A stretch of DNA of 42,473 nucleotides, from assembly GCA_002336975.1 (NCBI GenBank), contig DDFA01000086.1:1-42473 (forward strand), read 5' to 3'. The notes under the pieces were generated by a model. That model saw nothing but the letters and a program-made list of their open reading frames with translations, was not told where the DNA came from and did no database searches. Shown here piece after piece: positions 14,109-37,754 of the stretch. The translations under genes and the position numbers were made by a program. Position 1 is the first letter of the stretch. The number at the start of each line of letters is the position of its first letter. The DNA comes from Phyllobacteriaceae bacterium UBA1940 (lineage in GTDB: Bacteria > Pseudomonadota > Alphaproteobacteria > Rhizobiales > Rhizobiaceae).

Positions 14109-14190
14109 TGCGCTCTCCTTTGAGACAAAACCTTAATCTTTCGGGCTTGCGCGAAGATGACCGCGCCGCCGCAGCGGCGGACATCTGGGT

Positions 14191-14345
14191 CTAGGCGACC
14201 GGCGTTTCCAGCAAACGCGCCGCTGCGGCTTCCTCGAGCGGTCTTGCGAATAGCCACCCTGGCCGAAGCCGCAGCCGAACTGGCGCAGCCGGTTGGCCTG
14301 TTCGGCGGTTTCGACGCCTACGGCGACGACCGGCGCGATGATCCC
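14191..14345 (-). pseudogene. C-terminal remnant of an EAL-domain phosphodiesterase
   Basis: Two minus-strand frames together recreate the end of an EAL domain. One reads VVAVGVETAEQANRLRQFGC followed by GFGQGG; after a one-base shift the other continues LFARPLEEAAAARLLETPVA and then stops. This matches the end of EAL domains, where AEGVET and QGYLFARP are conserved. Only about 50 codons remain, the Glu of AEGVET is Val, and nothing EAL-like precedes it. It is a decayed fragment of a cyclic-di-GMP phosphodiesterase gene, cut off just before the catabolic region. Confidence 0.75.
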
Positions 14346-14394
14346 GTCGTCGGAACAACTGCCGAACGACGATTGACACGGGCGCGTCTGTCGT

Positions 14395-14449
14395 GCCACC
14401 CATTTATGCGCAATTGGCACATAGTGCATATTACGCATAAATGGGTGGC
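14395..14449 (+). promoter_or_regulatory. Double MarR operator inside an inverted repeat, before the M20 gene
   Basis: GCCACCCATTTATGCG (14395-14410) and CGCATAAATGGGTGGC (14434-14449) are perfect 16-bp inverted arms. Within them are two 17-bp sites in tandem, ATGCGCAATTGGCACAT (14406-14422) and TAGTGCATATTACGCAT (14422-14438), sharing one base. The same two-site arrangement occurs at 16144-16176 before marR. The element ends 2 nt before the M20 start codon, so a bound repressor would block its expression. Confidence 0.7.
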
Positions 14450-14451
14450 GC

Positions 14452-15657
14452 TTGCCGGGTGAATCGCTGAAGCGCAGGGCAGAGGAGGCGATCCGCGCGC
14501 TTGCGCCGGAACTGATCGTGGTCGCGCGCGAGATCCACGCCAATCCAGAACTGGCGTTTGCCGAATACTTTGCGGTCGACAGACTGTGCCGCTCGCTGAA
14601 TCTGCACGGCTTGGCGCCGCGGACCGCCGCCTATGGCCCCGGCACAAGCTTCGATGTCGAGTTCGGCGCCGCCAGCGGACCGGTGGTCTGCATCATCTCG
14701 GAATACGACGCCTTGCCGCAGGTGGGCCACGCCTGCGGCCACAACATTATTGCAAGCGCCGGGTTGGGCGCGGCGTTGGGACTGTCGATGCTTGCATCGG
14801 CATTGCCGGGGCGTGTGCGCTATCTCGGCGCGCCTGCCGAAGAATCCGGCGGCGGCAAGGAGATCATGGCGCGGGCCGGCGCCTTCGAAGGCGTCGACTG
14901 CGCCATGATGGTGCACCCGGCTACACAGAACCTGCCGGCGATGCCGCTGATTGCAGCGACCGGGGCGACGGTAAGATATCGCGGCCGGTCGGCGCACGCG
15001 TCTTCCGCTCCAGAACACGGCGTCAATGCGCTGGATGCGCTCGTGATTTCGTATCAGGCGATAGCGGCGCTTCGCCAGCATCTGCCGGTCGGACAGCGTG
15101 TCCATGGCGTCATCACGGCGGGTGGCGATGCGCCAAACACGATACCTGAACTTGCCGCGGCGCGGTATCAGATCCGCGCGCCGAAACTGCAACAGCTGCT
15201 GGAACTGCAGAAGCGGGTCGAGGCGGCCTTCCAGGCGGGCGCGCTTGCCGCCGGCGCCACCGTCGACGTCGCCTGGGACGACGTCGTCTATGCCGACATG
15301 CAGACCAATTGGGCGCTGGCTCGCGCCTACCAGGCGAATGCCGAATTGCTTGGCCGCGCCTTCGATAGCTACGAAGACATTCCGTTGAGCGCGGCGGCGA
15401 GCTCCGACATGGGAAATGTCAGCCTGCGAGTACCGTCAATTCACCCGATGATCGCCATGGCTCCCGCTGGAGTGAAACACCACCATCCAGATTTTGCAGA
15501 ATGGTCGAACAGCGACCTCGGCATGGTGGCGGTCGTAGATGGCGCGATCGCGATGGCGCAAACGGCGATCGACTTCATGATGAATGAGGACCTTCGCCTG
15601 CGTGTCGAAGCCGAATTCCAGGCGACGATGGCGGAGCGTCGATTGATCTCGCCATGA
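14452..15657 (+). CDS. M20-family amidohydrolase (AbgB/ACY1-like)
   Basis: A 401-residue cytoplasmic di-zinc hydrolase that cleaves N-acyl, N-carbamoyl or aminobenzoyl-type amide bonds. The metal ligands typical of M20D are visible: GHACGH (~92-97), the Glu pair in APAEESGGGK (130-131), MVHP (His ~155), and a late His in KHHHPDF. A lid domain (about 180-290) interrupts the catalytic domain, containing GRSAHASSAPEHGVNALDAL. The start is a TTG at 14452, directly after the MarR operator; no better in-frame start exists before residue 20. It converges with marR (6-nt gap). It probably acts on the product of the linked HyuAB enzyme, but the substrate is unproven. Confidence 0.88.
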   Translation: MPGESLKRRAEEAIRALAPELIVVAREIHANPELAFAEYFAVDRLCRSLNLHGLAPRTAAYGPGTSFDVEFGAASGPVVCIISEYDALPQVGHACGHNIIASAGLGAALGLSMLASALPGRVRYLGAPAEESGGGKEIMARAGAFEGVDCAMMVHPATQNLPAMPLIAATGATVRYRGRSAHASSAPEHGVNALDALVISYQAIAALRQHLPVGQRVHGVITAGGDAPNTIPELAAARYQIRAPKLQQLLELQKRVEAAFQAGALAAGATVDVAWDDVVYADMQTNWALARAYQANAELLGRAFDSYEDIPLSAAASSDMGNVSLRVPSIHPMIAMAPAGVKHHHPDFAEWSNSDLGMVAVVDGAIAMAQTAIDFMMNEDLRLRVEAEFQATMAERRLISP

Positions 15658-15663
15658 AACGGT

Positions 15664-16128
15664 CTAATCCGCCAGCTTCGGCTCCCACTGCGCCAGCCGG
15701 TCCAAGCATGATGCGACCTGCTCGATTTCGCTGTGGGTGAGCAGCGCGCGAAAATCCTGGTCCAGCGCGTCGCCGATCCTGTTCGCCTGCCTCAGCAGCT
15801 TGGCGCCCTTGGCGGTCAGGCGCGGCACCAGGCTCCTGGCGTCCTTGGCGGAAACTTCGCGCACGATCAGATCGGCCTCCACGAGACTGCCGAGAAGTCG
15901 CGAGACGCGCGTCCTTTCGAGCCGCGATTCCTGTGTGATGTCGCCGACCGACGACAGCGAGTCCGCCGCGACCAGACGAAGCACGCGCAATTGCTCGATG
16001 CTCAGCCCGACCTTGTCCTGGTAGATCTGGTCGGCGATATCGCGCGTCCGCTTGGCGACGACTTCGATCCGCCAGTTGAAATAGTCCTGGATTCGCCGAG
16101 TCATGTCCCCCACGCGCACATTCCTCAT
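15664..16128 (-). CDS. MarR-family transcriptional regulator
   Basis: A 154-residue dimeric winged-helix repressor. The helical N-terminus (IQDYFNWRIEVVAKRTRDIA), recognition region (DITQESRLERTRVSRLLGSL) and wing (REVSAKDARSLVPRLTAKGA) are typical of MarR. An ATG at 16128 lacks a ribosome site; an in-frame ATG at 16104 follows GGGGG, so the protein may be 8 residues shorter. A two-site operator lies just upstream (16144-16176) in the region shared with the divergent binding-protein gene, and a matching operator precedes the M20 gene. It therefore probably regulates itself, the M20 hydrolase and the transport/hydantoinase operon. The inducer is unknown. Confidence 0.9.
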   Translation of the reverse strand: MRNVRVGDMTRRIQDYFNWRIEVVAKRTRDIADQIYQDKVGLSIEQLRVLRLVAADSLSSVGDITQESRLERTRVSRLLGSLVEADLIVREVSAKDARSLVPRLTAKGAKLLRQANRIGDALDQDFRALLTHSEIEQVASCLDRLAQWEPKLAD

Positions 16129-16143
16129 TTTGATGTTGCATTT

Positions 16144-16176
16144 ATGTGCAGACTGCGCATATTGCTATTTACACAT
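16144..16176. promoter_or_regulatory. Double MarR operator between marR and the binding-protein gene
   Basis: ATGTGCAGACTGCGCAT (16144-16160) is a 17-bp dyad of form ATGYGCA-N3-TGCRCAT. A second, weaker 17-bp copy, TATTGCTATTTACACAT, follows at 16160-16176, again sharing one base. Order, spacing and sequence match the element at 14406-14438. It lies 16 nt upstream of the marR ATG at 16128, at the start of the divergent promoter region for the operon at 16364. Confidence 0.72.
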
Positions 16177-16363
16177 AATGAGCTGGCTTTACCACGGCGG
16201 CCTCGGAATGGGCAAGCGAATGCTGGCGAGATGACCGGCCGCAAGACAGTCGGCTGAACTTTGCCGGAGCAAGAAGGGAAACAGGAATTTCATCGTCGAC
16301 ACAGGCGCCTCCACAATCCGCCAAGAAGATACTGGAGCGCCGCAAAAATGGGGAACTACCGAC

Positions 16364-17494
16364 ATGAATTATTACAGCGTCAAATCTTTTATCAAGATGA
16401 CAGTGGCGATGCCTGTTCTGGCGTCGCTTGGCCTCGGCCTGTCCTTATCGTCCGCTTCGGCCGAGACCGCGGCTGAGATCGTGGCGAAGGCGTCGCTGCC
16501 GATCAGTGCGGCGCCGATCGTTCCCGTCGCCAAGAACGCGGTGGATCTCAAAGGCGCCAAGGTTCATTACATTTCGGCCGGCCTTGTATTTCCATTCAGC
16601 CAGCAGGTTCTGAAGGGCGTCCAGGACGCTTCGGCGCTGCTTGGAATGGAGGTCGTCGTCACCGATGCGGCCGGCGATGCGTCGAAGGCGTCGAGTTTCA
16701 TCGATCGCGCCATCGGTCAGAAGGCCTCGGCGATCGTCTTGCAGGGCGTCGATCCCTATACGGTCGAGGCGTCGGTGCGCGACGCAAAGGCGGCGGGCAT
16801 TCCCGTCATTTCCATGGCCGGGCTGCTGTCGGGTCCGATCCCGGCAGACATTGCCGAGGCGGGCGTCGTGGCGAATGTGGCGTTTTCATCCGCCGAGGCC
16901 GGTCGACTGCTGGCCGCCTATGTCGCGGCGAACTCGGCCGCGGACGCGCATGTCGGCGTCATCGGCTCCTCGACCTTCCGCATCGACGGACCTTTCATCG
17001 CGACCTTCGAATCCTCGCTGAAAGAATTCTGCGCAGGGTGCGTGCTCACCAAACAGGACTCGCCGTTGCCGCAATGGCAGACGACCCTGTCGTCGCTGGC
17101 GCGCACCATGGTCACTGTCGACCCCAAGATCACCTATGTCGTGCCGATCGTGGATGCGATGGCGCCGACCGTCAAATCGGCCATCGCGGCCGCCGGCGCC
17201 GAGGACCGGGTGAAGATCGCCTCGCACAATGCGTCGCTGCCGGACATGCAGGCCATCGCCAGCAAGACCGACATGGAGGTGGCCAATGTGGGCGTCTCCA
17301 ACGAGCGCCTTGGCTGGGCGACGGTCGACCAGATCGTCCGCCTCAAGAACGGCATCGAGCCAGTCGTCGAGGACCAGCCGTTCCGGATGTTCACGCGGGA
17401 CAATATCGACCAGATCGACCTGAAGACGGAAGGGGCCGACTGGTTCGGCTTCGACTACCGCAAGTTTTACGCCGGGTTGTGGGGCGTCAACTAG
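16364..17494 (+). CDS. Sugar-type ABC transporter substrate-binding protein (module 1)
   Basis: A 376-residue periplasmic type I binding protein of the RbsB-like class (Peripla_BP_4). The signal peptide runs to about ASAETA (~33). The core begins GAKVHYISAGLVFPFSQQVL, followed by the typical DAAGDASKASSFIDRAIGQK and the second-lobe start DAHVGVIGSSTF. The ATG follows GGGGA. It opens the module 1 operon, with hyuA, hyuB, amidohydrolase, permease and ATPase downstream. A GC-rich hairpin right after the stop probably sets it above the other genes. Despite the family name, the ligand is likely related to the HyuAB substrate, but this is inference. Confidence 0.9.
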   Translation: MNYYSVKSFIKMTVAMPVLASLGLGLSLSSASAETAAEIVAKASLPISAAPIVPVAKNAVDLKGAKVHYISAGLVFPFSQQVLKGVQDASALLGMEVVVTDAAGDASKASSFIDRAIGQKASAIVLQGVDPYTVEASVRDAKAAGIPVISMAGLLSGPIPADIAEAGVVANVAFSSAEAGRLLAAYVAANSAADAHVGVIGSSTFRIDGPFIATFESSLKEFCAGCVLTKQDSPLPQWQTTLSSLARTMVTVDPKITYVVPIVDAMAPTVKSAIAAAGAEDRVKIASHNASLPDMQAIASKTDMEVANVGVSNERLGWATVDQIVRLKNGIEPVVEDQPFRMFTRDNIDQIDLKTEGADWFGFDYRKFYAGLWGVN

Positions 17495-17615: not shown

Positions 17616-19727
17616 ATGACGTCCGATTCCGACAACAACTCCAGGCCGGCAAAGGCGCGGATCAGGGCTGCGACAGACGTCGGCGGAACCTTCACCGACC
17701 TGGTCTACTACAGTGTCGATCCCGTCACCGGCGAGGCCGGCCAGGTGCGCATCGAAAAATCGGGAACGACGCCGCCGCATTTCGAGAAGGGCGTGGAGGA
17801 TGTCCTGGGCCGCGCCGGCGTCGATCCCATCAGCCTCGAGGCGTTCGTGCACGGCAGCACCGTGGTCATCAACGACATCACCGAACGCAAGGGCGTCAAG
17901 GTTGCGCTGATCACGACCGCCGGCTTCCGCGATGTGCTCGAGATCGGACGGGGAAATCGTCCCGACCTGTTCAATTTCAATTTCCAGAAGCCGAAGCCGT
18001 TCGTCGAGCGCTACCTCCGCTTCGAACTCGACGAGCGGACCAATCACAAGGGCGAGATCCAGAAACCGGTGCATGCGGCGGAGTTGGAGCCGCTTCTGGC
18101 GCAGATGCGCGCCGACGGGGTCCAGGCGATCGCCATCTCGTTCCTGCATGCCTATCTCAACCCGGAAAACGAACAGAAGGCCGTCGCCGAGATCAAGCGA
18201 CTGTGGCCCCAGATATCCGTCGTCGCGTCACATGAACTGAGCCGGGAATGGGGCGAATACGAGCGGACCAACACCGCCGTACTGGCGGCCTACGTTCACC
18301 CGAAAGTCAGCCGCTATCTGAGCACGCTCGAAAGCCGCATGCGGCCGCCGGGCGGCGCGACGTCGTTTTACGTCATGCAGTCGAATGGCGGCGTTGCGAC
18401 GGTCGCCGCCGCGCAGCGCAATCCCCTTTCGATCATGGAGTCCGGCCCTGCCGGTGGCATCAAGGCCGCCGCCTTCGTCGGTCGGCAGATCGGCGTCAAC
18501 AACATCCTGGCGCTCGATATCGGCGGGACCACCGCCAAGTGCGCCCTGATCCACAATGGCGACGTCAACGTCACCACCGAATATCACATCGAGCGGACAA
18601 GGAAGTTCCCAGGATATCCGATCCGCACGCCGGTCGTTGATATCGTCGAGATTGGAACCGGCGGCGGCAGCATCTCCTGGTTCGATGACGGCGGCAAGCT
18701 GCACGTCGGCCCGCAATCGGCGGGCGCCGTTCCTGGGCCGGCCGCCTACGGAAAGGGCGGCGGCAACATGACGACGACGGATGCGCACCTTGTCCTTGGC
18801 GTCATCGACCCCGCAAATTTCCTCGGCGGCGAGGTCGTGCCCGACGCCGCCGCAATCGAGGCGGCGAGCAAGCCGCTTTGCGACCGTTTGGGCGTCTCAA
18901 AACAGGAACTGGCGCGCGGCATCGTGAAGATCGCCAATGCAAACATGACCAATGCGCTGCGCCAGGTGTCCAGCAACAAGGGTTACGACCCGCGCGACTT
19001 CGTGCTGATGGCGTTCGGCGGCGGCGGGCCGATGCATGCCGTGGCCCTGGCCGAGGAACTGCAGATTTCGCACGTCATCGTTCCCGCCAACTCGTCGGTG
19101 TTCGCGGCGTGGGGGATGCTGCTGACCGATCTGCGCCGGGACTATGTGAAGACCGACTATCTGGCATTCGGCGACGGTGCGGCGTCGAAAATCGCCGAGG
19201 CGTTTGCCGAGTTGAAGTTGCTCGCACACGACGATTTCGAAAGCGACCGCACCGGCATTTCCCTGTCCAGCATTCAGTACGACCACCGGCTGCGCATGCG
19301 ATATGCCGGCCAGGAGCATTCGGTCGAGGTCGCGGCCGTCGTCGATGCGAATGGCGCAATCGCGGTGGAACGGCTCGTCGACGACTTCCACCGGACCTAC
19401 GAACAGCATTTCAGCTATCGCCTGCCCGCTGCGATCGAGATCGTCGGCTTCCATCTGGTGGCGACGCTGCCGGTGGAGAAGCCGCCGCTGCCGCGACGCG
19501 AAGGAACCGGCGCGTCGGCGCAGTTGCGCAAGCGCGCGGTCGATTTCGGCCGGGGCGCCATCGAGGACGTTCCGGTGTTCGATGGGCGCGCGCTGGCGCC
19601 GGGGCAAGCGTCCGGGCTCGCCGGACCCGTCGTGATCCAGGAGCCGACCGTCACATTGCCCGTACCGGCCGGCTACGCCGTCTCGGTCGACGATTTCGGC
19701 AACTACCACATTCGCGCGATACGCTGA
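17616..19727 (+). CDS. HyuA: hydantoinase/oxoprolinase alpha-type subunit (module 1)
   Basis: A 703-residue subunit of the ATP-dependent hydantoinase/5-oxoprolinase family, which opens cyclic amides and, in relatives, carboxylates ketones. The N-terminal Hydant_A_N domain has the nucleotide-binding DVGGTFTDLVYY (~21-32). The central hydantoinase_A domain has a second phosphate loop (LALDIGGTTAKCAL, ~295). A C-terminal domain follows (about 500-700). The ATG follows GGGAG. hyuB starts 11 nt after its stop, so the two form a complex. Relatives include N-methylhydantoinase, caprolactamase and acetophenone carboxylase; sequence alone does not choose between them. Confidence 0.92.
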   Translation: MTSDSDNNSRPAKARIRAATDVGGTFTDLVYYSVDPVTGEAGQVRIEKSGTTPPHFEKGVEDVLGRAGVDPISLEAFVHGSTVVINDITERKGVKVALITTAGFRDVLEIGRGNRPDLFNFNFQKPKPFVERYLRFELDERTNHKGEIQKPVHAAELEPLLAQMRADGVQAIAISFLHAYLNPENEQKAVAEIKRLWPQISVVASHELSREWGEYERTNTAVLAAYVHPKVSRYLSTLESRMRPPGGATSFYVMQSNGGVATVAAAQRNPLSIMESGPAGGIKAAAFVGRQIGVNNILALDIGGTTAKCALIHNGDVNVTTEYHIERTRKFPGYPIRTPVVDIVEIGTGGGSISWFDDGGKLHVGPQSAGAVPGPAAYGKGGGNMTTTDAHLVLGVIDPANFLGGEVVPDAAAIEAASKPLCDRLGVSKQELARGIVKIANANMTNALRQVSSNKGYDPRDFVLMAFGGGGPMHAVALAEELQISHVIVPANSSVFAAWGMLLTDLRRDYVKTDYLAFGDGAASKIAEAFAELKLLAHDDFESDRTGISLSSIQYDHRLRMRYAGQEHSVEVAAVVDANGAIAVERLVDDFHRTYEQHFSYRLPAAIEIVGFHLVATLPVEKPPLPRREGTGASAQLRKRAVDFGRGAIEDVPVFDGRALAPGQASGLAGPVVIQEPTVTLPVPAGYAVSVDDFGNYHIRAIR

Positions 19728-19738
19728 GGGAGGCCGCA

Positions 19739-21406
19739 ATGGACTATTTTACCAGAGAGGTCATCCGCGACGCGCTCGTCGACATCGGTGACATGATGTT
19801 CAACGCCATGGTTCGCACCTCCATGAGCCCGATCGTCTACGAGGCCAAGGATTTCGCCGTCGGCGCCACCAACGCCGGCGGTGAGCTGCTTGCGCAGGGC
19901 AACGGCCTGGCGGCTTTCCTCGCCACGCTGGACAGCGCCGTGACGGGAACCATCGAGCACTGGAAGGGTCGCGGGGCGATCAATCCGGGTGATGTGTTCA
20001 TCTCCAATAGCCCCTATGAGGGCGGCGGCACGCATCTGTCGGATGTGAGCATCATCCTGCCGGTGTTCTTCGAGGGCGAACTGGTTGCCTGGACCGTCAA
20101 CAAGGCGCACTGGATCGACATTGGAGGCACCAATGCCGGCAGCGTCGCCACCAACGCCACCAGCATCTACCAGGAAGGCCTGCATCTGCGCTTCCTGAAA
20201 GTGCTGGACCGCGGACAGCCCAACGACGCGATCTTCCAGTTCATTCGCGACAATGTCCGGCTGCCCGAAAACGCCATCGGCGACATGCAGGCCGGCATCG
20301 CCGCCGCGCGGGTCGGCGAACGCCGCCTGCTCGAACTGTTCACGAAATACGGCACGTCGGACGTCCTCGAAACGATGGATGCGCTCTTGGAATACGGGCG
20401 CGTCATGACGCAGAAGGCGCTCGCCGCGCTGCCGCACGGCACATATGAGGCCGAGGACGTGCTTGAAGATGACGGGCTCGGCACCGGGCCGCTGGTCTTG
20501 CGCGTGAAGGTGACGGTAACGGCCGAAAAGGTGATCGCCGATTTCACCGGCACCAGCGCGCAGATGCCCGGCCCGGTCAACTGCAGCTACGCCTGCCTGG
20601 TCACGGCGGCGCGCTGCATTCTCAAATCGATCACCAATCCGGACGTCATGGCGAATGGCGGATCGTTTCAGCCGCTCGAGGTGATCGCGCCGGAAGGCTC
20701 AGCCGTCAACGCGACCGCGCCTGCGCCGGTCTCGGTCTACTACGAGACGCTGGTCGCAGCGATGGACGTGATGTGGAAGGCGCTGGCGCCGGTCCTCGCC
20801 GACCGTCTGCCGGCGGGCCACATGCGCACCGTCAGCGGCAACTACATCAGCGGTCCCCACGCCGACACCGGCAATTTCATCATTCTCGGGCAGCCGCTCG
20901 CCGGGGGCTGGGGCGCCACGTCGGAACGCGACGGCGACCACGGTCAATTCAGCTGCGGCAATGGCGACACTTTCAACATACCGATCGAGCTGACCGAGGC
21001 GCGGTTCGGGGTGAAGGTTCACCGCTACGCATTCCACAACGAGGACGGCGGCATGGGCCGTCATCTCGGCGGCAAGGGCATGGTGCTCGAATACGAGGTG
21101 CGCGGACCGGAACTGTTCGTGACCTATATGGCGACCCGCACGGAACGGCGTCCCTGGGCGGTCGACGGGGGGCAGGAAGGCTCGACCAACTACATGGAGA
21201 TCGTCTCCCCGTCGGGCGTAAGCCGCCGCCTCGAGATGTGCACCAATGAACGCGTCGTGCGCGGCGAGATCATCAGGCTCGTCACAGCGACCGGCGGCGG
21301 CAACGGGGATCCGAAGCTGAGACCGGCGGAACAGGTCGCCCGCGACATCAGGAACGGCTTTGTGACGCCTGAGCAGGCGCAACGCCACTTTGGCGTCGGC
21401 GCATAG
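19739..21406 (+). CDS. HyuB: hydantoinase/oxoprolinase beta-type subunit (module 1)
   Basis: A 555-residue Hydantoinase_B subunit, partner of HyuA. Diagnostic stretches are VRTSMSPIVYEAKDFAVGAT, NPGDVFISNSPYEGGGTHLS, NKAHWIDIGG and, near the end, ATGGGNGDP. The His and Asp residues in THLSDVSII and KAHWIDIG match conserved positions of the family. The ATG at 19739 follows GAGGGAGG and begins at the canonical N-terminus. The same frame is open far upstream inside hyuA, but that part is a shadow. The next gene starts within 2 nt of its stop. Confidence 0.93.
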   Translation: MDYFTREVIRDALVDIGDMMFNAMVRTSMSPIVYEAKDFAVGATNAGGELLAQGNGLAAFLATLDSAVTGTIEHWKGRGAINPGDVFISNSPYEGGGTHLSDVSIILPVFFEGELVAWTVNKAHWIDIGGTNAGSVATNATSIYQEGLHLRFLKVLDRGQPNDAIFQFIRDNVRLPENAIGDMQAGIAAARVGERRLLELFTKYGTSDVLETMDALLEYGRVMTQKALAALPHGTYEAEDVLEDDGLGTGPLVLRVKVTVTAEKVIADFTGTSAQMPGPVNCSYACLVTAARCILKSITNPDVMANGGSFQPLEVIAPEGSAVNATAPAPVSVYYETLVAAMDVMWKALAPVLADRLPAGHMRTVSGNYISGPHADTGNFIILGQPLAGGWGATSERDGDHGQFSCGNGDTFNIPIELTEARFGVKVHRYAFHNEDGGMGRHLGGKGMVLEYEVRGPELFVTYMATRTERRPWAVDGGQEGSTNYMEIVSPSGVSRRLEMCTNERVVRGEIIRLVTATGGGNGDPKLRPAEQVARDIRNGFVTPEQAQRHFGVGA

Positions 21407-21407
21407 C

Positions 21408-23096
21408 ATGGGCGCGCTGAGAAAGCCGGCGGCGCATACATGCTGCGCGTCGTGCGATTGCCTGCCGCATCCCAAGGCCGTCGCCACGGCGGCCGACGAG
21501 AACGCCAGCGGCCGGTTGCAGGCAGGCGAAGAGGTCATCCACGGCTTCCACCTCATCGGGCTCGATTCGATCGAGACGGCTGAAGAGCGCAGATTCGGCG
21601 AGGGTCCGTTCGATGAACTGATCATCCGCGGCGCCACGATCATCGACGGAACCGGCGCGCCGGCCATCGGCAACGGCGTCGTCGTCGTGCGCGGCAACCG
21701 CATCGTCAGCGTCGAAAACGGCGACGCGGCCGGCATACCGCTCGATTCGAACCACGATGCCGGCCGGCCCGGGGTAAAGGTCATCGACGCCAGGGGCAAA
21801 TACCTGCTGCCGGGCTTCATCGATTGCCACGCCCATATCGGCTACCCGCAGCAGGGCGTGGTCGGCAAGCCGGTCACCGCCGACTATGTGTTCCAGCTCT
21901 GGCTGGCGCATGGGGTGACGACAGTCCGCGACACCGGTTCGCTTAACGGTTTGACCTGGACGCTCGATCACATGCGCAAGAGCGAGCGCAACGAGATCGC
22001 CGCGCCGCGTATCCGGCCGCACGCAGTAGTGCCGTTTCTGGACGCCCGCAAGAAGGTCGACGACGCCCGCGCGCGGGACTGGGTCTTCGAAATCGCCGAG
22101 CGCGGGGCGGTCGGCCTGAAGTTTTTCGGCGCGCATCCGCACACCTTCGACGTCATACTGGACGCGTGCGGGCAAAAAGGGCTGCGCACCGCATTCCACC
22201 ACTCCCAGCAGACGGTGCGGGAACTCAACGCCATCACCTCGGCGCGCAAGGGTTTGACGAGCCTAGAGCACTGGTACGGCCTGCCGGAGTCGATGTTCGA
22301 GGATCGCACCGTCGCCGACTTTTCCGCCGACTACGACTATAATGACGAATATATGCGCTTCTCGCAGGCCGGGCGGCTGTGGAAGCAGGCCGCTACGCCG
22401 TACAGCCAAAAATGGCGCGATGTCCGCGACGAACTGATTGCGCGCGGGCTGACGCTTGTCCCCACCATGACCTGCTACGAGGCGACGCGCGACGTCATGG
22501 CTGCCCGCGAAGCCGAGTGGCATGACGACTACACCTGGCCGACGCTGTGGCGCTACTTCCAGCCGAACCAGAACGTGCACGGCTCGTACTGGTACGACTG
22601 GACGACGGCCAATGAGATCGACTGGAAAGAGAATTACCGGCTCTGGATGTCGTTCATCAACGACTACAAGAACCACGGCGGCCGGGTCGTGGCCGGCAGC
22701 GATTCCGGCTTCATGTACAAGGTCTACGGCTTCGGCTACATCCGGGAACTCGAACTGCTGCAGGAAGCCGGGTTTCATCCGCTCGAGGTGATCCGCAGCG
22801 CCACCAGCCTCGGATCGGAACTCCTCGAAATGGATGACGAGATCGGATCGATCCAGGAAGGCAAGCTGGCCGACATCATCATCCTGGATCACAACCCGAT
22901 GCAGAATCTGAAGACGTTGTACGCGACGGGTTCTCCTTACCTCGATCGGGAGACCAACGAGGTCAGCCGCCGCGGCGGCGTCGTTTGGACGATCAAGGAC
23001 GGCATTGTCTATGACGCGCAACAGCTCAGGGACAATGTCCGGGACATGGTCGAACGCCAGAAGGCGGCCGATCGGGAAGCGGGGCTGCTGGCATGA
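21408..23096 (+). CDS. Metal-dependent amidohydrolase with Cys/His-rich N-terminal extension
   Basis: A 562-residue amidohydrolase-superfamily enzyme (imidazolonepropionase/hydantoinase-like TIM barrel). Metal-site elements are present: HAH in DCHAHIGYP, a lysine in VGLKFFG that may be carboxylated, His in FHHSQ and SLEHWYG, and Asp in AGSDSGF. The small beta domain begins DELIIRGATIIDGTGAP near residue 66. The first ~60 residues are an extension carrying HTCCASCDCLPH (~10-21), a possible metal-binding cluster not usual for the family. The ATG overlaps the end of hyuB; a TTG at 21390 is an alternative. No strong ribosome site is visible, so it may rely on translational coupling. It probably processes the HyuAB substrate or product. 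Confidence 0.85.
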   Translation: MGALRKPAAHTCCASCDCLPHPKAVATAADENASGRLQAGEEVIHGFHLIGLDSIETAEERRFGEGPFDELIIRGATIIDGTGAPAIGNGVVVVRGNRIVSVENGDAAGIPLDSNHDAGRPGVKVIDARGKYLLPGFIDCHAHIGYPQQGVVGKPVTADYVFQLWLAHGVTTVRDTGSLNGLTWTLDHMRKSERNEIAAPRIRPHAVVPFLDARKKVDDARARDWVFEIAERGAVGLKFFGAHPHTFDVILDACGQKGLRTAFHHSQQTVRELNAITSARKGLTSLEHWYGLPESMFEDRTVADFSADYDYNDEYMRFSQAGRLWKQAATPYSQKWRDVRDELIARGLTLVPTMTCYEATRDVMAAREAEWHDDYTWPTLWRYFQPNQNVHGSYWYDWTTANEIDWKENYRLWMSFINDYKNHGGRVVAGSDSGFMYKVYGFGYIRELELLQEAGFHPLEVIRSATSLGSELLEMDDEIGSIQEGKLADIIILDHNPMQNLKTLYATGSPYLDRETNEVSRRGGVVWTIKDGIVYDAQQLRDNVRDMVERQKAADREAGLLA

Positions 23097-23151: not shown

Positions 23152-24174
23152 GTGAACGGCTCCGGTTCGAAGTCGCCCGGCCCGGCCCGGGACTCGACTG
23201 CCGCCGCGCCGCTGCCCGCAAGCCGGCGCTTCGACGCGGGAGAGTTCGTCAACCGTTACGGGCTGGTCTGCGCCTGGATGCTGCTGATCGCCGGCTTCTC
23301 GATCGCCAGCCCGGACATCTTCATGAGCTGGGCGAATTTCACCAACATCTTTGGGTCGCAGGCGATCCTCGTCGTGCTGACGATGGGCATGATCGCGCCG
23401 CTGATCGTCGGCGAGTTCGACCTGTCGATGGCCGGATTGGTCTCGGTCTGTCTCATGTTGATCGGCGTGCTCAATGTCCAGCATGGCTGGCCGATCGGCT
23501 GGGTCGTCCTGGCGGTTGTGGGCGTATCCGTGCTGGTCGGGGCCGTGAACGCCTTCACGATTGTCCGCATCGGTGTCAATTCACTGGTGGCGACGCTGGG
23601 CATGGGCACGCTGCTGATGGGCGCCGCCTACGGGATCAGCGGACTGAGCATCGTCGGACTTGCGTCGGAACTGACTGCATTCGCCCGCACCCGGGTGTTC
23701 GGCATCCAGGCGGCGTTCTACTACGGCCTCGCGCTCACCATCGTCTGGTGGTACGTCCAGCGCTGGACGCCTCTTGGCCGAAACCTGCTGTTCACCGGCG
23801 CCAACCGCCAGGTGGCGCGGCTGTCGGGCGTGCCCGTCGACCGATTGCGCGCCGGTTCGCTGATGACGTCGAGCCTTGTCAGCGGTTTTGCCGCCATACT
23901 GCTCGCAGGCGTGCTGGGGTCGGCTGACCCGAGCGCCGCCAGCGGCTTTCTGCTGCCGCCCTTTGCCGCGGCGTTTCTCGGCGCGACCGCAATCAGTCCG
24001 GGGCGCTTCAATCCATGGGGCGCATTCATCGCCGTCTATTTCCTCGTCACCGGCATCGTCGGCCTTCAGATCCTCGGCTTCTCCGGCTGGATCGAGCAGG
24101 TCTTCTACGGCGGCGCCCTGGTGCTCGCGGTGACACTGTCGAGGATCGCCGCCGACAGGCTGCGCGGGAGTTAG
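23152..24174 (+). CDS. ABC transporter permease, RbsC family (module 1)
   Basis: A 340-residue inner-membrane permease (BPD_transp_2 family) with about 8-10 hydrophobic segments after a ~45-residue polar N-terminus. The loop GEFDLSMAGLVSVCLMLIGV corresponds to the family's conserved GGIDLSVG region, and VNSLVATLGMGTLL is typical. The GTG start follows GGAGA. It works with the ATPase starting 6 nt downstream and the binding protein at 16364. It is the only permease of module 1, so it would act as a homodimer. Confidence 0.9.
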   Translation: MNGSGSKSPGPARDSTAAAPLPASRRFDAGEFVNRYGLVCAWMLLIAGFSIASPDIFMSWANFTNIFGSQAILVVLTMGMIAPLIVGEFDLSMAGLVSVCLMLIGVLNVQHGWPIGWVVLAVVGVSVLVGAVNAFTIVRIGVNSLVATLGMGTLLMGAAYGISGLSIVGLASELTAFARTRVFGIQAAFYYGLALTIVWWYVQRWTPLGRNLLFTGANRQVARLSGVPVDRLRAGSLMTSSLVSGFAAILLAGVLGSADPSAASGFLLPPFAAAFLGATAISPGRFNPWGAFIAVYFLVTGIVGLQILGFSGWIEQVFYGGALVLAVTLSRIAADRLRGS

Positions 24175-24179
24175 CCAAC

Positions 24180-25718
24180 ATGGCGGCGCCGTCTCGACCA
24201 ACTGTCCTGTCGCTGCGGAACATCTCGAAGTCGTTCGGATCGCGCAGGGTGATCGACGACGTCGACCTCGATGTGGAGAGCGGTGAGGTTCACGCCCTGC
24301 TCGGACAGAACGGATCGGGCAAGTCGACGCTGATCAAGATCCTGTCGGGCGTTTATGAACCCGACCCGGCCGGCGGCGGCCCCTTCATGAGCCTGCGCGG
24401 CGAAGCCCTCGCGCTGCCGCTTGATCCGAGCGAAGCCGTGGCCGCGGGCATTGTCGCCGTGCACCAGGACCTAGCCCTGGTCGGCGAAGCGACCGTTCTC
24501 GAAAATCTCAGGATCGGCCGGTTCGCGACCAAGCCGGGCTGGCGGATCGACTGGCGACGCGAAAGGCAGGCGGCGGCGTCCGCCCTCGCCGCGTTCGGCA
24601 TCGACGCCTCACCTGACCGGAGGACCATCGATCTGGACGAGGTTGACCGGGCGATGCTGGCGATCCTGCGGGGGTTGCAGGGTCTACCCGGCGACAGACC
24701 CGGAATCCTCGTCCTGGACGAGCCGACCGCGCATCTGCCGCGTGATGGCGTCGAGCGCGTCTTTGCCGCGATCCGGCGCGTCGCCGCAGACGGTCACGGC
24801 GTCATGCTGGTGACCCACCGCCTCGATGAAGTGATGGCCATCACCGATCGCGTTTCGGTCATCCGCGACGGCAGAATCCGCTACGTCGCCGCCACCAGGG
24901 ACTCGACGGAACGCGCGCTGGTGAACGCCATCCTGGGGTTCGAACTCGGCGATCTCTACCCGCAACGCGAGGAGGCCCGGGGTGATGTGGCGCTGGTTGC
25001 CAACGGCCTGTCCGGGCGGCGGGTCAGCGAACTTTCGCTGACGGCGCACAGAGGGGAAATTCTCGGCGTCACCGGGCTGGTCGGGGCCGGCCAGGAGGAA
25101 GCGCCCTATCTGATTTTCGGCGGTCGCCAGGGGGGCGGTTCGATCGCCGTCGGCGACGCCGCGATCCCGCAGCGCGAGATGACGCCGGCGCGCGCCATCG
25201 AGGCCGGAATTGCGCTTCTGCCGGCCGACCGGCGCGAAGCGTCCGGGATCGGCGCGCTTTCGGTGCGCGAGAACGTCAGTTTCCCGGCGCTCCGCCGCTT
25301 CTTCAGGCGAGGGGCCCTCGACGAGGGTTCCGAGCGCACGCACGTTCAGCAGTTGCTGGGCACGTTCGACGTCCGGCCGCGCGATCCGGAGTTACTATTG
25401 TCGTCCCTCAGCGGCGGCAACCAGCAGAAGGCGCTGCTGGCGAAGTGGTTCCAAACCAGGCCGAAAGTGCTTTTGCTGCATGAGCCGACGCATGGAATCG
25501 ACATCGGTTCCCGCCGCACCATCTTCAAGCTCATCCGCGAAGCGGCCGACGCCGGATCCGCGATCATCCTGTTCAGCGCCGAATATGCCGACCTCGCGCA
25601 TCTGTGCAATCGCGTCATCGTCATGCAACATGGGCGCCAGGTGGCGGAGTTGAACGGCGCATCGCTGAGTGAGGAGCGCATCATTGCGACATGCATGATG
25701 AACGAACCGGCCACGTGA
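24180..25718 (+). CDS. ABC transporter ATPase, two-domain sugar type (module 1)
   Basis: A 512-residue RbsA-like protein with two nucleotide-binding domains (about 8-250 and 262-505). Domain 1 has Walker A GQNGSGKST and Walker B ILVLDEPT but an eroded signature (IDLDEVDRAMLAI in place of LSxxQQ). Domain 2 has a good signature (LSGGNQQKALLAKW), no Walker A GKS (GLVGAGQEEAPY, normal for the family) and Walker B LLLHEPT with His for Asp. The intact parts fall in one composite ATP site and the lost parts in the other. The ATG at 24180 lies 6 nt after the permease stop. A long in-frame extension inside the permease gene is rejected. It converges with the GAF gene. Confidence 0.92.
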   Translation: MAAPSRPTVLSLRNISKSFGSRRVIDDVDLDVESGEVHALLGQNGSGKSTLIKILSGVYEPDPAGGGPFMSLRGEALALPLDPSEAVAAGIVAVHQDLALVGEATVLENLRIGRFATKPGWRIDWRRERQAAASALAAFGIDASPDRRTIDLDEVDRAMLAILRGLQGLPGDRPGILVLDEPTAHLPRDGVERVFAAIRRVAADGHGVMLVTHRLDEVMAITDRVSVIRDGRIRYVAATRDSTERALVNAILGFELGDLYPQREEARGDVALVANGLSGRRVSELSLTAHRGEILGVTGLVGAGQEEAPYLIFGGRQGGGSIAVGDAAIPQREMTPARAIEAGIALLPADRREASGIGALSVRENVSFPALRRFFRRGALDEGSERTHVQQLLGTFDVRPRDPELLLSSLSGGNQQKALLAKWFQTRPKVLLLHEPTHGIDIGSRRTIFKLIREAADAGSAIILFSAEYADLAHLCNRVIVMQHGRQVAELNGASLSEERIIATCMMNEPAT

Positions 25719-25745: not shown

Positions 25746-26297
25746 CTACACGGGGTCTTTGGCAGCCGTTTCGGACGACAGAACAGAAAGAAAGAGATCT
25801 GCCCCCTGAGTTGCGATCCGGGCGGCGAATATCGCCAGCGCCGCGACGGGCAGTTCCTGTTTCAGGCGGGCGACCCGCTCGGCGGTGAAATGTCCGGCGA
25901 CGTCCATCAGGTTGAGCAGGCCGACCGTCGCGCCATGGACCACCACCGGCACGTTTGCGAGCGATCCGTAACCCTGGTCGACATAGGCGTCGAAGCCCGG
26001 CAGCCAGTTGTCGATCTCCACGGAGTCGTTGGCGACAATGGCTTCGCCGTCGGAAAACAGCCGCCGGAACCAGATCGTGTCCTCGATCGGGTCGGCGGCG
26101 CCGAGCGGATATTGCGTCTCATTGGTGGAGAACACCCGCGACAGGCACGGCGCGTTCGGCTCCGACACCAGGATCGTCAGCAGCCTGTAGCCGACATTGC
26201 GGGCGAGATTGTCCGCCAGCAGTTCAAACATCGCGCCGGACCCCAGGGCGAGCGCATCGGGCAGGCTGGTCGACGCCGCCGGCGCCTGGATGGTCAT
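25746..26297 (-). CDS. GAF-domain protein
   Basis: A 183-residue cytoplasmic protein made almost entirely of a GAF fold (about 15-160). Typical features are RNVGYRLLTILVSEPN, SNETQYPLGAADPIEDTIWF, and the YGSLANVPVVVHGATVGLLN core-to-strand segment. No output domain is attached, so it is a stand-alone sensor or a small enzyme-like GAF. The ATG overlaps the stop of the M24 gene by 4 nt, placing it last in the GntR-M24-GAF operon. A role as ligand sensor or partner for the M24 enzyme is a guess; free GAF proteins with methionine sulfoxide reductase activity exist, but the key cysteine pattern is not evident. Confidence 0.75.
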   Translation of the reverse strand: MTIQAPAASTSLPDALALGSGAMFELLADNLARNVGYRLLTILVSEPNAPCLSRVFSTNETQYPLGAADPIEDTIWFRRLFSDGEAIVANDSVEIDNWLPGFDAYVDQGYGSLANVPVVVHGATVGLLNLMDVAGHFTAERVARLKQELPVAALAIFAARIATQGADLFLSVLSSETAAKDPV

Positions 26298-27415
26298 GCC
26301 TTGCCCCCGATAACCGTGAGTTCGCGCGGAAAACTGGTCAGCGAACGGCTTCCCTGTTCGGTGACCAGCACGTCGTCCTCGATGCGCACGCCGACGACGC
26401 CCGTCTGATAGAGGCCGGGCTCGATGGTGATCACCATGCCCGCTTCCGCCGCCTGCCGGTTGCCGATCATGACCTGCGGCGCCTCGTGCACGTCCATGCC
26501 GAGCCCGTGCCCGGTCTTGTGAACGATCAGCTCGCCGAAGCCGGCGTCCCGCATTACGCCGGTCACCGTCCGGTCGATCGTGTCCATGGTCACGCCCGGC
26601 CTGGTGATCTCGCGACCTTTCGCGTTCGCCGCCAGAACCGCGTTGTAGATGTCGCGGTCGCGGTCGCTCGCCTCGCCGACGAAGAAGGTGCGCGTGATGT
26701 CCGCATTGTAGCCGCCCCAGGTCGCGCCGAAATCGATCAGCAGCGCATCGCCGTGGGCCAGGATCCGGTCCTCGCTCGGCGAACCGTGCGGATCGGCCGC
26801 GGCCGCGCCGGCAAGCACGATCGGGTCGAACGCCATGCCGTCCGCGCCCTCGTCCAGCATCGCCTGGACCAGCCGGCCGCGCACCGCCCATTCGCTGACG
26901 CCGGGCCGCACCGCCTCGACGGTCTTTTGCAGGGCGGTCTCGCTGATCGAGATCGCCCGCTGCATCGCGGCGATTTCGGCGTCGTCCTTGTGCAGCCGCA
27001 TCGCCGACACCGCGGCGTGAACGTCAACGACCGGGGTGTCGCGGAAGGCGCGGCGCAGCGCCTCGGTCTCGAAGAAACGCATGCGCTGCCCCTCGACGCC
27101 GATGCGCGAGGTGTTGAGCCGCCGCGCCACGGCGGCGAAGGCGCTGTCAAAACCGTCGGAGTCCTGCCAGTAGGCGGTCTCGACGTCGCCGGCGAGCGCC
27201 GACCAGCGCGCCCGCTCCAGTTCGGGAATGACCGCGTGCATGACGCCCGTGCCGGTGACGAACAGCACGGTCGGCCGCTCCATCAGGTGGAAGTGAACGC
27301 CGGTCAGGTGATAGAAGTTCGCGCCGGGCACGATCGCGACGGCTTCGGTGTCGCCGGCGGCCATCGCCGCGAGCAGCTTCTGCTTCCTGGCTTGCCTGAT
27401 CTGAGGGTCGATCAA
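26294..27415 (-). CDS. M24-family (Xaa-Pro-type) metallohydrolase
   Basis: A 373-residue pita-bread hydrolase with an N-terminal creatinase-like domain (about 5-135) and a C-terminal catalytic domain (about 145-365). All five metal ligands are present: Asp228 (LIDFGAT), Asp239 (YNADITR), His303 (KTGHGLGM), Glu332 (TIEPGLY) and Glu346 (RIEDDV). The start is a TTG at 27415 that overlaps the GntR stop and follows GGAG. Longer frames from 27580 run inside the GntR gene and are rejected. With its full metal site it should be a peptidase or amidase rather than a creatinase, which lacks metal. It is probably a substrate-processing enzyme of module 2. Confidence 0.88.
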   Translation of the reverse strand: MIDPQIRQARKQKLLAAMAAGDTEAVAIVPGANFYHLTGVHFHLMERPTVLFVTGTGVMHAVIPELERARWSALAGDVETAYWQDSDGFDSAFAAVARRLNTSRIGVEGQRMRFFETEALRRAFRDTPVVDVHAAVSAMRLHKDDAEIAAMQRAISISETALQKTVEAVRPGVSEWAVRGRLVQAMLDEGADGMAFDPIVLAGAAAADPHGSPSEDRILAHGDALLIDFGATWGGYNADITRTFFVGEASDRDRDIYNAVLAANAKGREITRPGVTMDTIDRTVTGVMRDAGFGELIVHKTGHGLGMDVHEAPQVMIGNRQAAEAGMVITIEPGLYQTGVVGVRIEDDVLVTEQGSRSLTSFPRELTVIGGKA

Positions 27416-28164
27416 TTTGAATCTCCGCTTCGTAGTGAGAATTTGATGCCGACCTTGGGTTCCAGCGATCGCTGGACCACCCGCAGTTCGGACATGACGT
27501 GTTCGCTCGCCAGTTCCTCGGCGCTGGCCGCGTCGCCGGCCTCGATCGCATCGAGGAGGGCGGCATGCTGGGCGATGCACAAGGCGCCCTCGGCCTCGTC
27601 GAACAGTGGGTAGTAGTGCAGCAGGTGCATGCGCCGCCCGTAGTCGAGCGCCAGCCGGTAGAAATTTCCGAGGAAAGTGTTGCCGCTCGCGTCCGAGATC
27701 GCGCCATGAAAACCGATGTCGCCGGCGACGATCGCGGCAATGTCGCCCTGGCGCACCGCCTCGACATAGGCGTGCTGGTTGTCCTTGATCGCCTCGACCG
27801 CCGCCGGCGTCCGCATCTCCGCCGCCAGGCGGCTGAGCGCGCGCGACAGCAGCATCAGCGTATCCATATATTCATGGGCGTTGCTCATCGTGTGCGGCGT
27901 CACGATGGCGCTGCGGCTCGGCAGGAACGTCACCAGATCCTCGCGCGACAGCATCAGCAGCGCCTCGCGCACTGGTGTGCGCGACAGGCCGAACCGGCCA
28001 GCCAGCGCCACCTCGTCGAGCGCCGACCCCGGTTTGATGCGCAGCGACAGGATGTCCTCGCGAAGCTCCTCGTAGATCGCGGTCGAGCCGCGCCCGCGCC
28101 GCGGAGAATCGGCCGCCGTGTCGTCGCCCCCCTTGGAGGCCTTTCCGCCTTTTCCTGTTGCCAA
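27412..28164 (-). CDS. GntR-family regulator, FCD (FadR) subgroup
   Basis: A 250-residue regulator with a basic N-terminal tail, a winged helix-turn-helix (about 28-95; ELREDILSLRIKPGSALDEV then RFGLSRTPVREALLMLSRED) and an FCD ligand domain (about 105-230) with His in GDIGFHGAI and AQHAALLDAI, typical metal ligands. The start is a TTG preceded by GGGAGG. It is the first gene of the GntR-M24-GAF operon and divergent from the module 2 transport/hydantoinase operon, which it likely represses. The inducer is probably a carboxylate intermediate, as is usual for FCD proteins, but unknown here. Confidence 0.9.
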   Translation of the reverse strand: MATGKGGKASKGGDDTAADSPRRGRGSTAIYEELREDILSLRIKPGSALDEVALAGRFGLSRTPVREALLMLSREDLVTFLPSRSAIVTPHTMSNAHEYMDTLMLLSRALSRLAAEMRTPAAVEAIKDNQHAYVEAVRQGDIAAIVAGDIGFHGAISDASGNTFLGNFYRLALDYGRRMHLLHYYPLFDEAEGALCIAQHAALLDAIEAGDAASAEELASEHVMSELRVVQRSLEPKVGIKFSLRSGDSN

Positions 28165-28229: not shown

Positions 28230-28265
28230 TTGCATCTGAAAATTTTATTTGCATAAAGTTTGCAT
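28230..28265. promoter_or_regulatory. Repeated TTGCAT motifs in the gntR / module 2 divergent region
   Basis: TTGCAT occurs at 28230-28235, 28249-28254 and 28260-28265. The last two form an 11-bp direct repeat (ATTTGCATAA, AGTTTGCATT) in an AT-rich stretch that stands out from the GC-rich surroundings and lies between the two divergent start codons. It probably contains the promoters and the GntR operator. The repeats are direct rather than dyad, so the exact operator is uncertain. Confidence 0.45.
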
Positions 28266-28328
28266 TATGGAATATGGTTTTGGCGTCTAGGGGGAGGGGC
28301 GATAAGCGCCCACAGGAGGAACAACGTC

Positions 28329-29327
28329 ATGCTGAAATCGATTCTTAGTCTTGCGGCGTCGACCGCATTGGCTGCCGCGACGCTGACCGGCGCGGCCCAT
28401 GCAAAGGACTGGAAGGTCGCCCTGTTCGCGTCGTCGGCGCAGAACGGCTTCAACCAGGCCATCTATGAAGGCATGCAGCGCAAGGCCAAGGAACTCGGCA
28501 ATGTCGAGACCGCGATCTATGACGGCCAGTTCGACGCCGCCCGGCAGTACAGCCAGATCGAGGACGTGCTCGCTGGTGGCCAGTTCGACGCCTTCATCGT
28601 GGTGCCCAACGATACTGTCGGCATCGCCGGCGCCGTGGCCGAAGTCGGCAAGGCCGGCAAGCCGCTCGCCACAGCTCTTTTCCCGATCGGTCCGGATCTT
28701 TCCAAGCTCGAGCCGCAGGTTCCCGGCGTGACCACGACGGTCGCCTCGCCGCCTGCCGACGGCGCGCGCGCCCAGGCCGAGGACGTCGTCAAGTTCTGTG
28801 CCGACAAGGATCCGTGCAACGTCGTCATCATGATCGGCCAGCGCATTTATCCCTTCGACAACCTCCGCTACGAGGTCTACACCAAGGTCCTGGGCGAACA
28901 CGCCAACATCAAGGTTGTGGCGACGGGCGAGGGTAATTACGACCCCGACAAGTCGCTGACGGTGATGCAGGACATCCTGCAGGCCAACAAGGACATCAAC
29001 GTGGTTCTCTCCAACGCCGACCAGCATCTGGTCGGGGTGGAAATCGCGCTCGAATCGGCCGGCCGCGACGTCAAGGCGATGTATCTGTCGGGCGGCGGCG
29101 CCGCCTCTGTGGCGATCGATGCGATCCGCGAAGGGCGCTGGGACGTGACGCTGGCGCACTTCCCCCGCTCGATGGGCGAATATGCGCTCGACGCCATGGT
29201 CAAGAAGCTCGAGGGCAAGGACGCCCCCGCCGTCATCGACATGGACAAGGTTGGCCCGCTCCCGCCCCTCATCAACGCCGAGGTGCTCGCCAAATTCCCC
29301 GACTTCAAGGGCGAGTGGGCGCAGTAA
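28329..29327 (+). CDS. Sugar-type ABC transporter substrate-binding protein (module 2)
   Basis: A 332-residue periplasmic type I binding protein of the RbsB class. The signal peptide ends at GAAHA (~24). The first strand DWKVALFASSAQNGFNQAIY, hinge-proximal GGQFDAFIVVPNDTVGIAGA and late segment VVLSNADQHLVGVEIALESA are typical. Two cysteines (KFCADKDPC) could form a disulfide. The ATG follows AGGAGG; an in-frame start near 28260 would lie in the operator region. It opens the module 2 operon and is followed by a GC hairpin before hyuA. Its sequence is clearly different from the module 1 binding protein, so a different ligand is likely. Confidence 0.92.
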   Translation: MLKSILSLAASTALAAATLTGAAHAKDWKVALFASSAQNGFNQAIYEGMQRKAKELGNVETAIYDGQFDAARQYSQIEDVLAGGQFDAFIVVPNDTVGIAGAVAEVGKAGKPLATALFPIGPDLSKLEPQVPGVTTTVASPPADGARAQAEDVVKFCADKDPCNVVIMIGQRIYPFDNLRYEVYTKVLGEHANIKVVATGEGNYDPDKSLTVMQDILQANKDINVVLSNADQHLVGVEIALESAGRDVKAMYLSGGGAASVAIDAIREGRWDVTLAHFPRSMGEYALDAMVKKLEGKDAPAVIDMDKVGPLPPLINAEVLAKFPDFKGEWAQ

Positions 29328-29342
29328 GCCTCGCGATATTCG

Positions 29343-29365
29343 CCGGCCCCGCCAGGCGGGGCCGG
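29343..29365 (+). other. GC hairpin between binding protein and hyuA (module 2)
   Basis: CCGGCCCCGCC (29343-29353) and GGCGGGGCCGG (29355-29365) are perfect 11-base inverted arms separated by a single A, giving a stem of about ten pairs. It lies 16 nt past the binding-protein stop, without a strong T-run. Its position matches that of the module 1 hairpin (17508-17531), which suggests the same role in setting transporter stoichiometry. Confidence 0.65.
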
Positions 29366-29402
29366 CCCGTTTCGACGCACAATCACATCTGGGAGAGTTG
29401 AC

Positions 29403-31430: not shown

Positions 31431-31445
31431 GACGGGAGAGACATC

Positions 31446-33149: not shown

Positions 33150-33181
33150 CGACGGCGCAGGACGTCGAGCGAAGGATCAAG

Positions 33182-34759: not shown

Positions 34760-35730
34760 GCCTCACGCAACGCGGGCCGAGGCCCGCCGCCAAGTTCGAT
34801 GGGCCGACCCTGTTGCGGCTGCTGCAACGCTACGCCGTGGCGGCAATGATCCTGATCCTGATGATCCTGCTCACGGCGATGAGCGATTCCTTCCTCACCG
34901 CCCAGAACCTGATGAACATCCTCAACCAGAACACGCCGCTGGCGATCATGGCTGCGGCGATGACGCTGGTCATCATCTGCGGCGGGTTCGACCTGTCGGT
35001 CGGCGCGATCTTCGCCGTGGCGAGCGTGGTGGCCGCGTCGCTGGCCGTCAACGTCAATCCCTATCTGGGGCTGATCGCCGCGCCGCTTGTCGGCATGGCG
35101 CTCGGTTTCGTCAACGGCGTCACCATCACCACGCTGAACATCCATTCCTTCCTGGCGACGCTGGCCACGGGGCTGGTCTATCGCGGCATCGCCATCCTGG
35201 TCACCGGCGGAACGCTCATCGCCGTGCGGCTCGACGACTTCACCTGGCTGGGAAGGGGGCGGATCGGCGCGGTCTACTACGCGGTCATCATTCTCGTCGT
35301 CTTCGCCGTGCTTCTGACCGTGCTGTTGAACCGGTCGACGCTCGGCCGGCGCATCCTCGCTGTCGGCGGCAATGAGGAAGCCGCCATCCTGTCGGGCATC
35401 CGCACCGACCGGGTGAAGATCATCGCCTTCACCATCAACGGGTTCGCCGCCGGACTGGCGGCGGCCATCGCGACCTCCCGGGTTTCGCTGGGGCAGGCGA
35501 CTGCCGGCGCCGGCATGGAACTCGAGGCGATCGCAGCGGTCATCATCGGCGGCACCAGCATCTATGGCGGGCAGGGCGCGGTGTGGCGCTCGATCGCCGG
35601 CGTGATCATGCTGGCGCTGATCAACAACGGCTTCAACATCCTCAACGCCGATCCCTTCTACAAGGACCTGACGACGGGACTGATCATCGTCGCGGCGGTG
35701 GCGATCAGCGCGGCGGGGCGCAAACGGTAG
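34756..35730 (+). CDS. ABC transporter permease, RbsC family (module 2)
   Basis: A 324-residue permease (BPD_transp_2) with about 8-10 membrane segments. It shows the conserved GGFDLSVGAIFAVASVVAAS loop, NIHSFLATLATGLVYRGIAI and the C-terminal GGTSIYGGQGAVWRSIAGV, a near-ideal match to ribose-type permeases. The ATG overlaps the ATPase stop by 4 nt. It is the last gene of module 2; a hairpin follows at once. Confidence 0.94.
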   Translation: MSLTQRGPRPAAKFDGPTLLRLLQRYAVAAMILILMILLTAMSDSFLTAQNLMNILNQNTPLAIMAAAMTLVIICGGFDLSVGAIFAVASVVAASLAVNVNPYLGLIAAPLVGMALGFVNGVTITTLNIHSFLATLATGLVYRGIAILVTGGTLIAVRLDDFTWLGRGRIGAVYYAVIILVVFAVLLTVLLNRSTLGRRILAVGGNEEAAILSGIRTDRVKIIAFTINGFAAGLAAAIATSRVSLGQATAGAGMELEAIAAVIIGGTSIYGGQGAVWRSIAGVIMLALINNGFNILNADPFYKDLTTGLIIVAAVAISAAGRKR

Positions 35731-37743: not shown

Positions 37744-37754
37744 TCGGACCTGCC

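Follow-up and report, generated by a model that had tools for sequence, protein, structure and literature searches.

The window, as we call the whole stretch of 42,473 nucleotides analysed here (contig DDFA01000086.1 of Phyllobacteriaceae bacterium UBA1940), carries a marR gene (15664..16104, - strand; Pfam MarR_2) lying tail to tail with a gene for an M20-family amidohydrolase (14452..15657, + strand). The two genes are convergent, as originally predicted, with 6 bp between their ends. The marR product comprises 146 aa from an ATG at 16104, which is most likely the true start because homologues begin within three residues of it and GGGGGA precedes it. A MarR wHTH domain is present (PF12802, E 4.4e-10, over cut-off) and the profile of the protein matches solved MarR structures; no NCBIfam equivalog was above cut-off for it. 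The M20 protein is recognised by Pfam M20_dimer and Peptidase_M20 and, above cut-off, by TIGR01891, and has an orthologue at 61% identity. Its start is a TTG at 14452, as placed by alignment with the orthologue from genome G241. By profile, the best solved relatives of this M20 protein are HmrA and the Xaa-Arg dipeptidase (PM20D2). Auxin-conjugate hydrolysis was also considered for this enzyme from its family membership, and no support for it was found.

On the other side of marR a series of plus-strand genes begins with an ABC substrate-binding protein, hereafter SBP (16364..17494; Peripla_BP_4; orthologues at 57-59%). It is followed by a HyuA-type hydantoinase/oxoprolinase subunit (17616..19727), whose nearest NCBIfam model, caprolactamase alpha, is below cut-off, and by a HyuB-type subunit (19739..21406, start approximate; Pfam Hydantoinase_B). 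Next come an amidohydrolase (Pfam Amidohydro_1/3), given here as its longest ORF (21390..23096) with the true start probably further downstream, an ABC permease (23152..24174; Pfam BPD_transp_2; G241 orthologue at 75%) and an ABC ATPase (24177..25718, start approximate; Pfam ABC_tran; G241 orthologue at 68%). A second cluster at 28260-35730 again comprises genes for Peripla_BP_4, HyuA, HyuB, an ATPase and a permease. Beside it we found an M24 peptidase gene (26294-27580, - strand) and an ORF with weak GAF matches below cut-off (25746-26891, - strand), while a BMP-type ABC transporter, composed of a Bmp binding protein, an ATPase and two permeases, is located downstream (36484-41250).

Two double sites in the window

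Two elements of 33 bp, which we term operators A and B, each consist of two 17-bp sites with one base in common. Operator A (14406-14438) is composed of 14406-14422 and 14422-14438 and precedes the M20 gene; operator B (16144-16176), composed of 16144-16160 and 16160-16176, lies between marR and the SBP gene. The pattern ATGYGCANNNKGCRCAT occurs with 0 mismatches at 14406-14422 and 16144-16160 and nowhere else in the window, where the next-closest match, at 33779, has 2 mismatches; dinucleotide shuffles of the window (n=200) produced a single 0-mismatch match overall, both strands considered. The second 17-mer of A has 3 mismatches to the pattern, and that of B is weaker, with about 5 by manual count, and falls outside the 3-mismatch list. 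Once up to 3 mismatches are tolerated, the window contains 42 matches to the 17-bp pattern against 32 expected, no fewer than chance would give; thus, what sets A and B apart is the exact sites and their pairing. The original prediction, which had reported matching double sites with a one-base overlap and a weaker second copy, proves correct to the base. It had further noticed no other copy in the window, and this extends to the whole assembly (3,363,789 bases, 81% complete), in which a 37-bp composite has 2 occurrences, A and B, and none else up to 3 mismatches. A shorter core allowed up to 1 mismatch in the assembly returned three rows, every one at A or B. Furthermore, a matrix built from B alone placed A second-best on the + strand of the window (26.0 bits; 0/5000 shuffles).

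The gaps that contain the two operators are AT-rich, in a genome that is GC-rich, and the centre-to-centre step of their 17-bp palindromes is 16 bp, or about 1.5 helical turns. The outer half-sites terminate in CATAAA or CATAAT, which could represent candidate -10 elements of outward promoters; a sigma-70 scan returned no promoter-like site at either A or B. In the MarR family, operators overlap -35/-10 elements, according to a review (PMC4486848).

Operator A forms the core of a 55-bp near-palindrome (14395..14449) with 26-nt arms that are 88% complementary, the outer 16 bp of each arm being perfect by reading. This palindrome stops 2 bases short of the TTG start of M20, and the RNA fold of 14385-14475 reaches -44.4 kcal/mol (z -4.89). 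Just outside it, on the - strand at 14250-14336 (in ORF 14133-14543), lies a sequence that resembles the last part of an EAL domain and would be a remnant of it (PF00563 profile positions 204-232 of 236; E 2.1e-5, 24.4 bits, below cut-off). Given this remnant, an insertion boundary may be present at the M20 end of the cluster.

Related marR loci and conservation of the double site

The subfamily of the window MarR looks rare in our searches, with few relatives. A two-sequence profile retrieved 40 proteins at E<=1e-5 among 2,736 candidates (own protein counted), and the window MarR alone as query yielded, at E<=1e-15, no cluster other than that of the window itself. A contig scan with MarR gave two loci, both irrelevant. 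For the SBP, at least 34 relatives at E<=1e-40 were found among the 8,000 candidates scored (own protein counted). A MarR profile of 11 members, run among 346 family genomes, led to G241, G319, G310, G320 and G082 in addition to the locus of the window. The SBP query recovered G241 among 297 family genomes, and an SBP profile applied to 148 genomes of one genus recovered G810. This genus looks like Rhizobium, as a minC stretch of 3.6 kb from its member G029 is matched at 93% by a Rhizobium plasmid. Searches with the SBP in the order (397 genomes) and the class (385 genomes) returned the window's own genome only, and in the genus of G241 (6 genomes) G241 only. The comparison set therefore consists of six loci outside the window's genome, from six different genera, all of which were examined. 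The window MarR is 36-43% identical to the ten other aligned members, and R64, V67, S68 and R69 are invariant across the 11, within the putative recognition-helix region.

A divergent M20 gene faces marR in five of the six related loci, G082 being counted with a distant one. This M20 gene in G241 and G810 (62 and 61% identical to the window M20 by tblastn) heads a unit M20-permease-SBP-ATPase-AspA, in which an AstE/AspA-type gene is last and the ABC genes are orthologous to those of the window. A CoA-ligase-type gene is close by in G310 and G320 (M20 at 53 and 50%), and the distant M20 of G082 (26%) is accompanied by a TRAP transporter. The gene divergent from marR in G319 encodes a family-3 binding protein, and the 14 kb retrieved there gave no M20 match. 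Across the neighbourhoods of 14-35 kb retrieved from the six relatives, no counterpart of HyuA or HyuB was recovered at E 1e-6, and tblastn with the window amidohydrolase was likewise negative in all six; a different kind of Amidohydro_3 gene is present in G310, 1 kb past marR. The original suggestion that M20 is tied to the HyuAB pathway consequently stands only in part. To judge from gene order, the link between M20 and the transporter is conserved (in two genomes, G241 and G810), but no HyuA or HyuB lies beside the six relatives, so that the tie to HyuAB is drawn from the operon of the window alone.

With M20 found at the marR promoter in relatives, the window is the odd one, having M20 off the shared promoter and equipped with an operator of its own. 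The gene layout of the relatives suggests that an ancestral M20 would have been transcribed from a promoter shared with marR. The gene apparently left this ancestral place and now lies across marR, its membership of the putative regulon being kept via its own operator copy.

We then consider the conservation of the double site itself. When each fetched locus was scanned with a matrix of the two window sites only, the top-scoring 33-mer lay upstream of marR in four of the six (G241, 27.7 bits; G319, 31.4; G310, 16.4; G320, 22.3; at most 6/3000 gap shuffles as good); the matrix failed in G810 (401/3000 shuffles as good) and G082 (2495/3000). The G810 site is supported by its 17-mer (41/3000 shuffles) and by a leave-one-out matrix (2/2000), while G082 has no double site although its M20 is divergent from marR. 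With leave-one-genome-out matrices, where the rank of the held-out locus is computed without its own site, the marR-upstream site ranked 1 in each of G241, G319, G310, G320 and G810; for G810 the register of the site was initially set by eye, and the other four sites came from the window-only matrix and so are not window-independent. Conversely, a matrix of the five other genomes ranked window B first (32.8) and A second (28.0) of 84,882 positions, with 0/2000 gap shuffles as good. A double site is thus found upstream of marR in five of the six related loci, being weakest in G810 and absent in G082. The search for a conserved motif in related, syntenic genomes, which the original prediction had proposed as a check, was accordingly positive, partly so in G810 and not in G082.

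Across the seven aligned sites, columns 7, 16-19, 21, 22 and 32 are invariant and TATGYGC occupies columns 16-22 in every one; ATGYGCA is repeated at 16 bp in both G310 (9028/9044) and G320 (9041/9057). The in-sample scores with the 7-site matrix are 43.7 for B and 40.3 for A. The best score on one strand of a 2-Mb Markov sequence was 16.8, the composition of that sequence being the window average and the gaps being more AT-rich.

Several loci with distant MarR genes (Leisingera L038, Variovorax L039, P. fungorum L040, Agrobacterium L041, G082 L036, L006 and L007) contain no 33-mer above 13.5. The marR gap of Paraburkholderia L024, meant as a control, gave 7/3000 shuffles as good with the window-only matrix, and shuffle fractions alone are therefore weak evidence. 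The exact 37-bp composite, at up to 3 mismatches, was absent from 393 other family genomes; since G241, with its drifted site, is among these genomes, such a rigid pattern is unsuitable and the zero is not evidence against conservation. A double-site-like match of 26.1 bits is present on a Paraburkholderia plasmid (L037:8371-8403), at the locus meant as a control, ahead of an ABC-amidase operon; we regard it as a lead only, the MarR there being 29% identical. Distant MarR genes are also next to amidohydrolase or M20 genes in L038 and L040, where M24 and creatininase genes occur nearby and the operator is absent.

A putative MarR regulon

What the sequences show directly is that the double sites exist, that they occur nowhere else in the assembly and that they are conserved next to genes of this MarR subfamily and its M20/ABC partners. 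In this context, we put forward, with a probability of roughly 0.86, that A and B are operators of the adjacent MarR, and that marR, M20 and the SBP-HyuAB operon constitute one regulon under ligand-released repression. The original reading of one regulon thereby gains support, namely from the shared operator and from its conservation near related marR genes. One MarR dimer would bind each 17-bp palindrome, and the 16-bp centre spacing, at about 1.5 turns, would place the two dimers on nearly opposite faces of the DNA. A solved structure of Rv2887, a MarR protein of M. tuberculosis, has two dimers on 30 bp at nearly opposite faces (PMC5526998); the likeness is one of two-dimer spacing, from which alone the geometry proposed here derives, and not of compared DNA sequences. 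Ligand-free MarR at B would keep off its own gene as well as the SBP-HyuA-HyuB-amidohydrolase-permease-ATPase operon, and MarR at A would keep M20 off. A small-molecule substrate or product would then free MarR, with all three units turned on together. Repression relieved by a ligand is described as the usual mode of the MarR family (PMC4486848, PMC5526998). Our best guess for the ligand is a compound that the M20/ABC pair takes as substrate or yields as product.

Shared sites speak for co-regulation and do not name the protein, and so A and B might belong to another regulator, for instance one whose gene lies elsewhere or near the second Hyu cluster, with marR a bystander. We consider this improbable, given that the site travels with the marR subfamily across genera, upstream of marR in five of six loci, and that G319 has it though the divergent gene there encodes a different binding protein and not M20. 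In another scenario MarR would act at B only, in autoregulation and on the SBP operon, and A, whether a degenerate or decoy copy or a hairpin formed in RNA, would not control M20. The location of A inside a long palindrome with a strong RNA fold, reaching to 2 bases before the start codon, would fit such a role, as would the TTG start of M20. However, the second 17-mer of A is better than that of B, the held-out scores of the two operators are close (28.0 versus 32.8) and M20 is a conserved partner of related marR genes, which leaves this scenario a slim chance. A purely compositional or chance likeness of AT-rich intergenic palindromes could be envisaged as well, with AT-rich gaps in a GC-rich genome and a 17-bp pattern as common as chance at 3 mismatches, yet the shuffle, Markov and held-out tests, together with the uniqueness in the assembly, make it extremely unlikely.

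Within the preferred reading of a single MarR regulon, the arrangement of the genes deserves mention. M20 and the SBP-HyuAB operon are on one strand with marR between them on the opposite strand, an order fitting a noncontiguous operon, a concept described previously (PMC7154746). A rather doubtful extension is that of a self-reinforcing switch, in which release of MarR from A would yield M20 transcripts antisense to marR, so that less MarR is made and the system is locked on, with the palindrome as an insulator. The antisense M20 transcript could run on into the SBP operon unless stopped at a terminator-like B. As for the insulator, RNA reading through from upstream could fold over the M20 start at the 55-bp palindrome, and protein could then be made only from the MarR-controlled promoter. 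In a scan of 14300-16500 the sole terminator-like site is the left 17-mer of operator B, on the + strand, where shuffles average 1.9, and this call may be meaningless; no terminator-like site was detected between M20 and operator B.

Autoregulated MarR catabolic repressors resemble the present system in that a wHTH regulator has sites both at the divergent promoter of its own gene and next to pathway genes. The window MarR differs from them in having no NCBIfam equivalog above cut-off and in its presumed targets, M20, ABC and HyuAB genes. A MarR regulon for tyrosine degradation, HmgS, is named in a survey of proteobacterial regulons, HmgS-type MarR proteins being regulators of homogentisate genes (PMC5343134). 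The available main text of this survey has no mention of M20, hydantoin or amidohydrolase (PMC5343134). Distant relatives of the window MarR, putatively HmgS, lie beside homogentisate genes in Variovorax (L039, 27%) and Agrobacterium (L041, 31%), and in contrast to the window these homogentisate operons are without the double operator. In the openly licensed literature we found no paper on a MarR regulon with hydantoinase, hyuA or hyuB genes or on overlapping palindromes. The putative regulon would offer a likely operator and regulon for an unnamed MarR subfamily, tie an uncharacterised M20 hydrolase to one transporter, and exemplify a gene that apparently left an ancestral shared promoter and stayed in its regulon by means of its own operator copy. 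The 33-bp signature is usable to find further members.

Finally, the region ahead of the second Hyu cluster has sequence features of its own. A weak match at 28240 scored 14.0 against the 7-site matrix, a value that the Markov control also attains, and is not claimed as a site. The AT-rich stretch at 28248-28265 contains a direct repeat, TTTGCAT, which is not a MarR double site and is possibly the site of another regulator.
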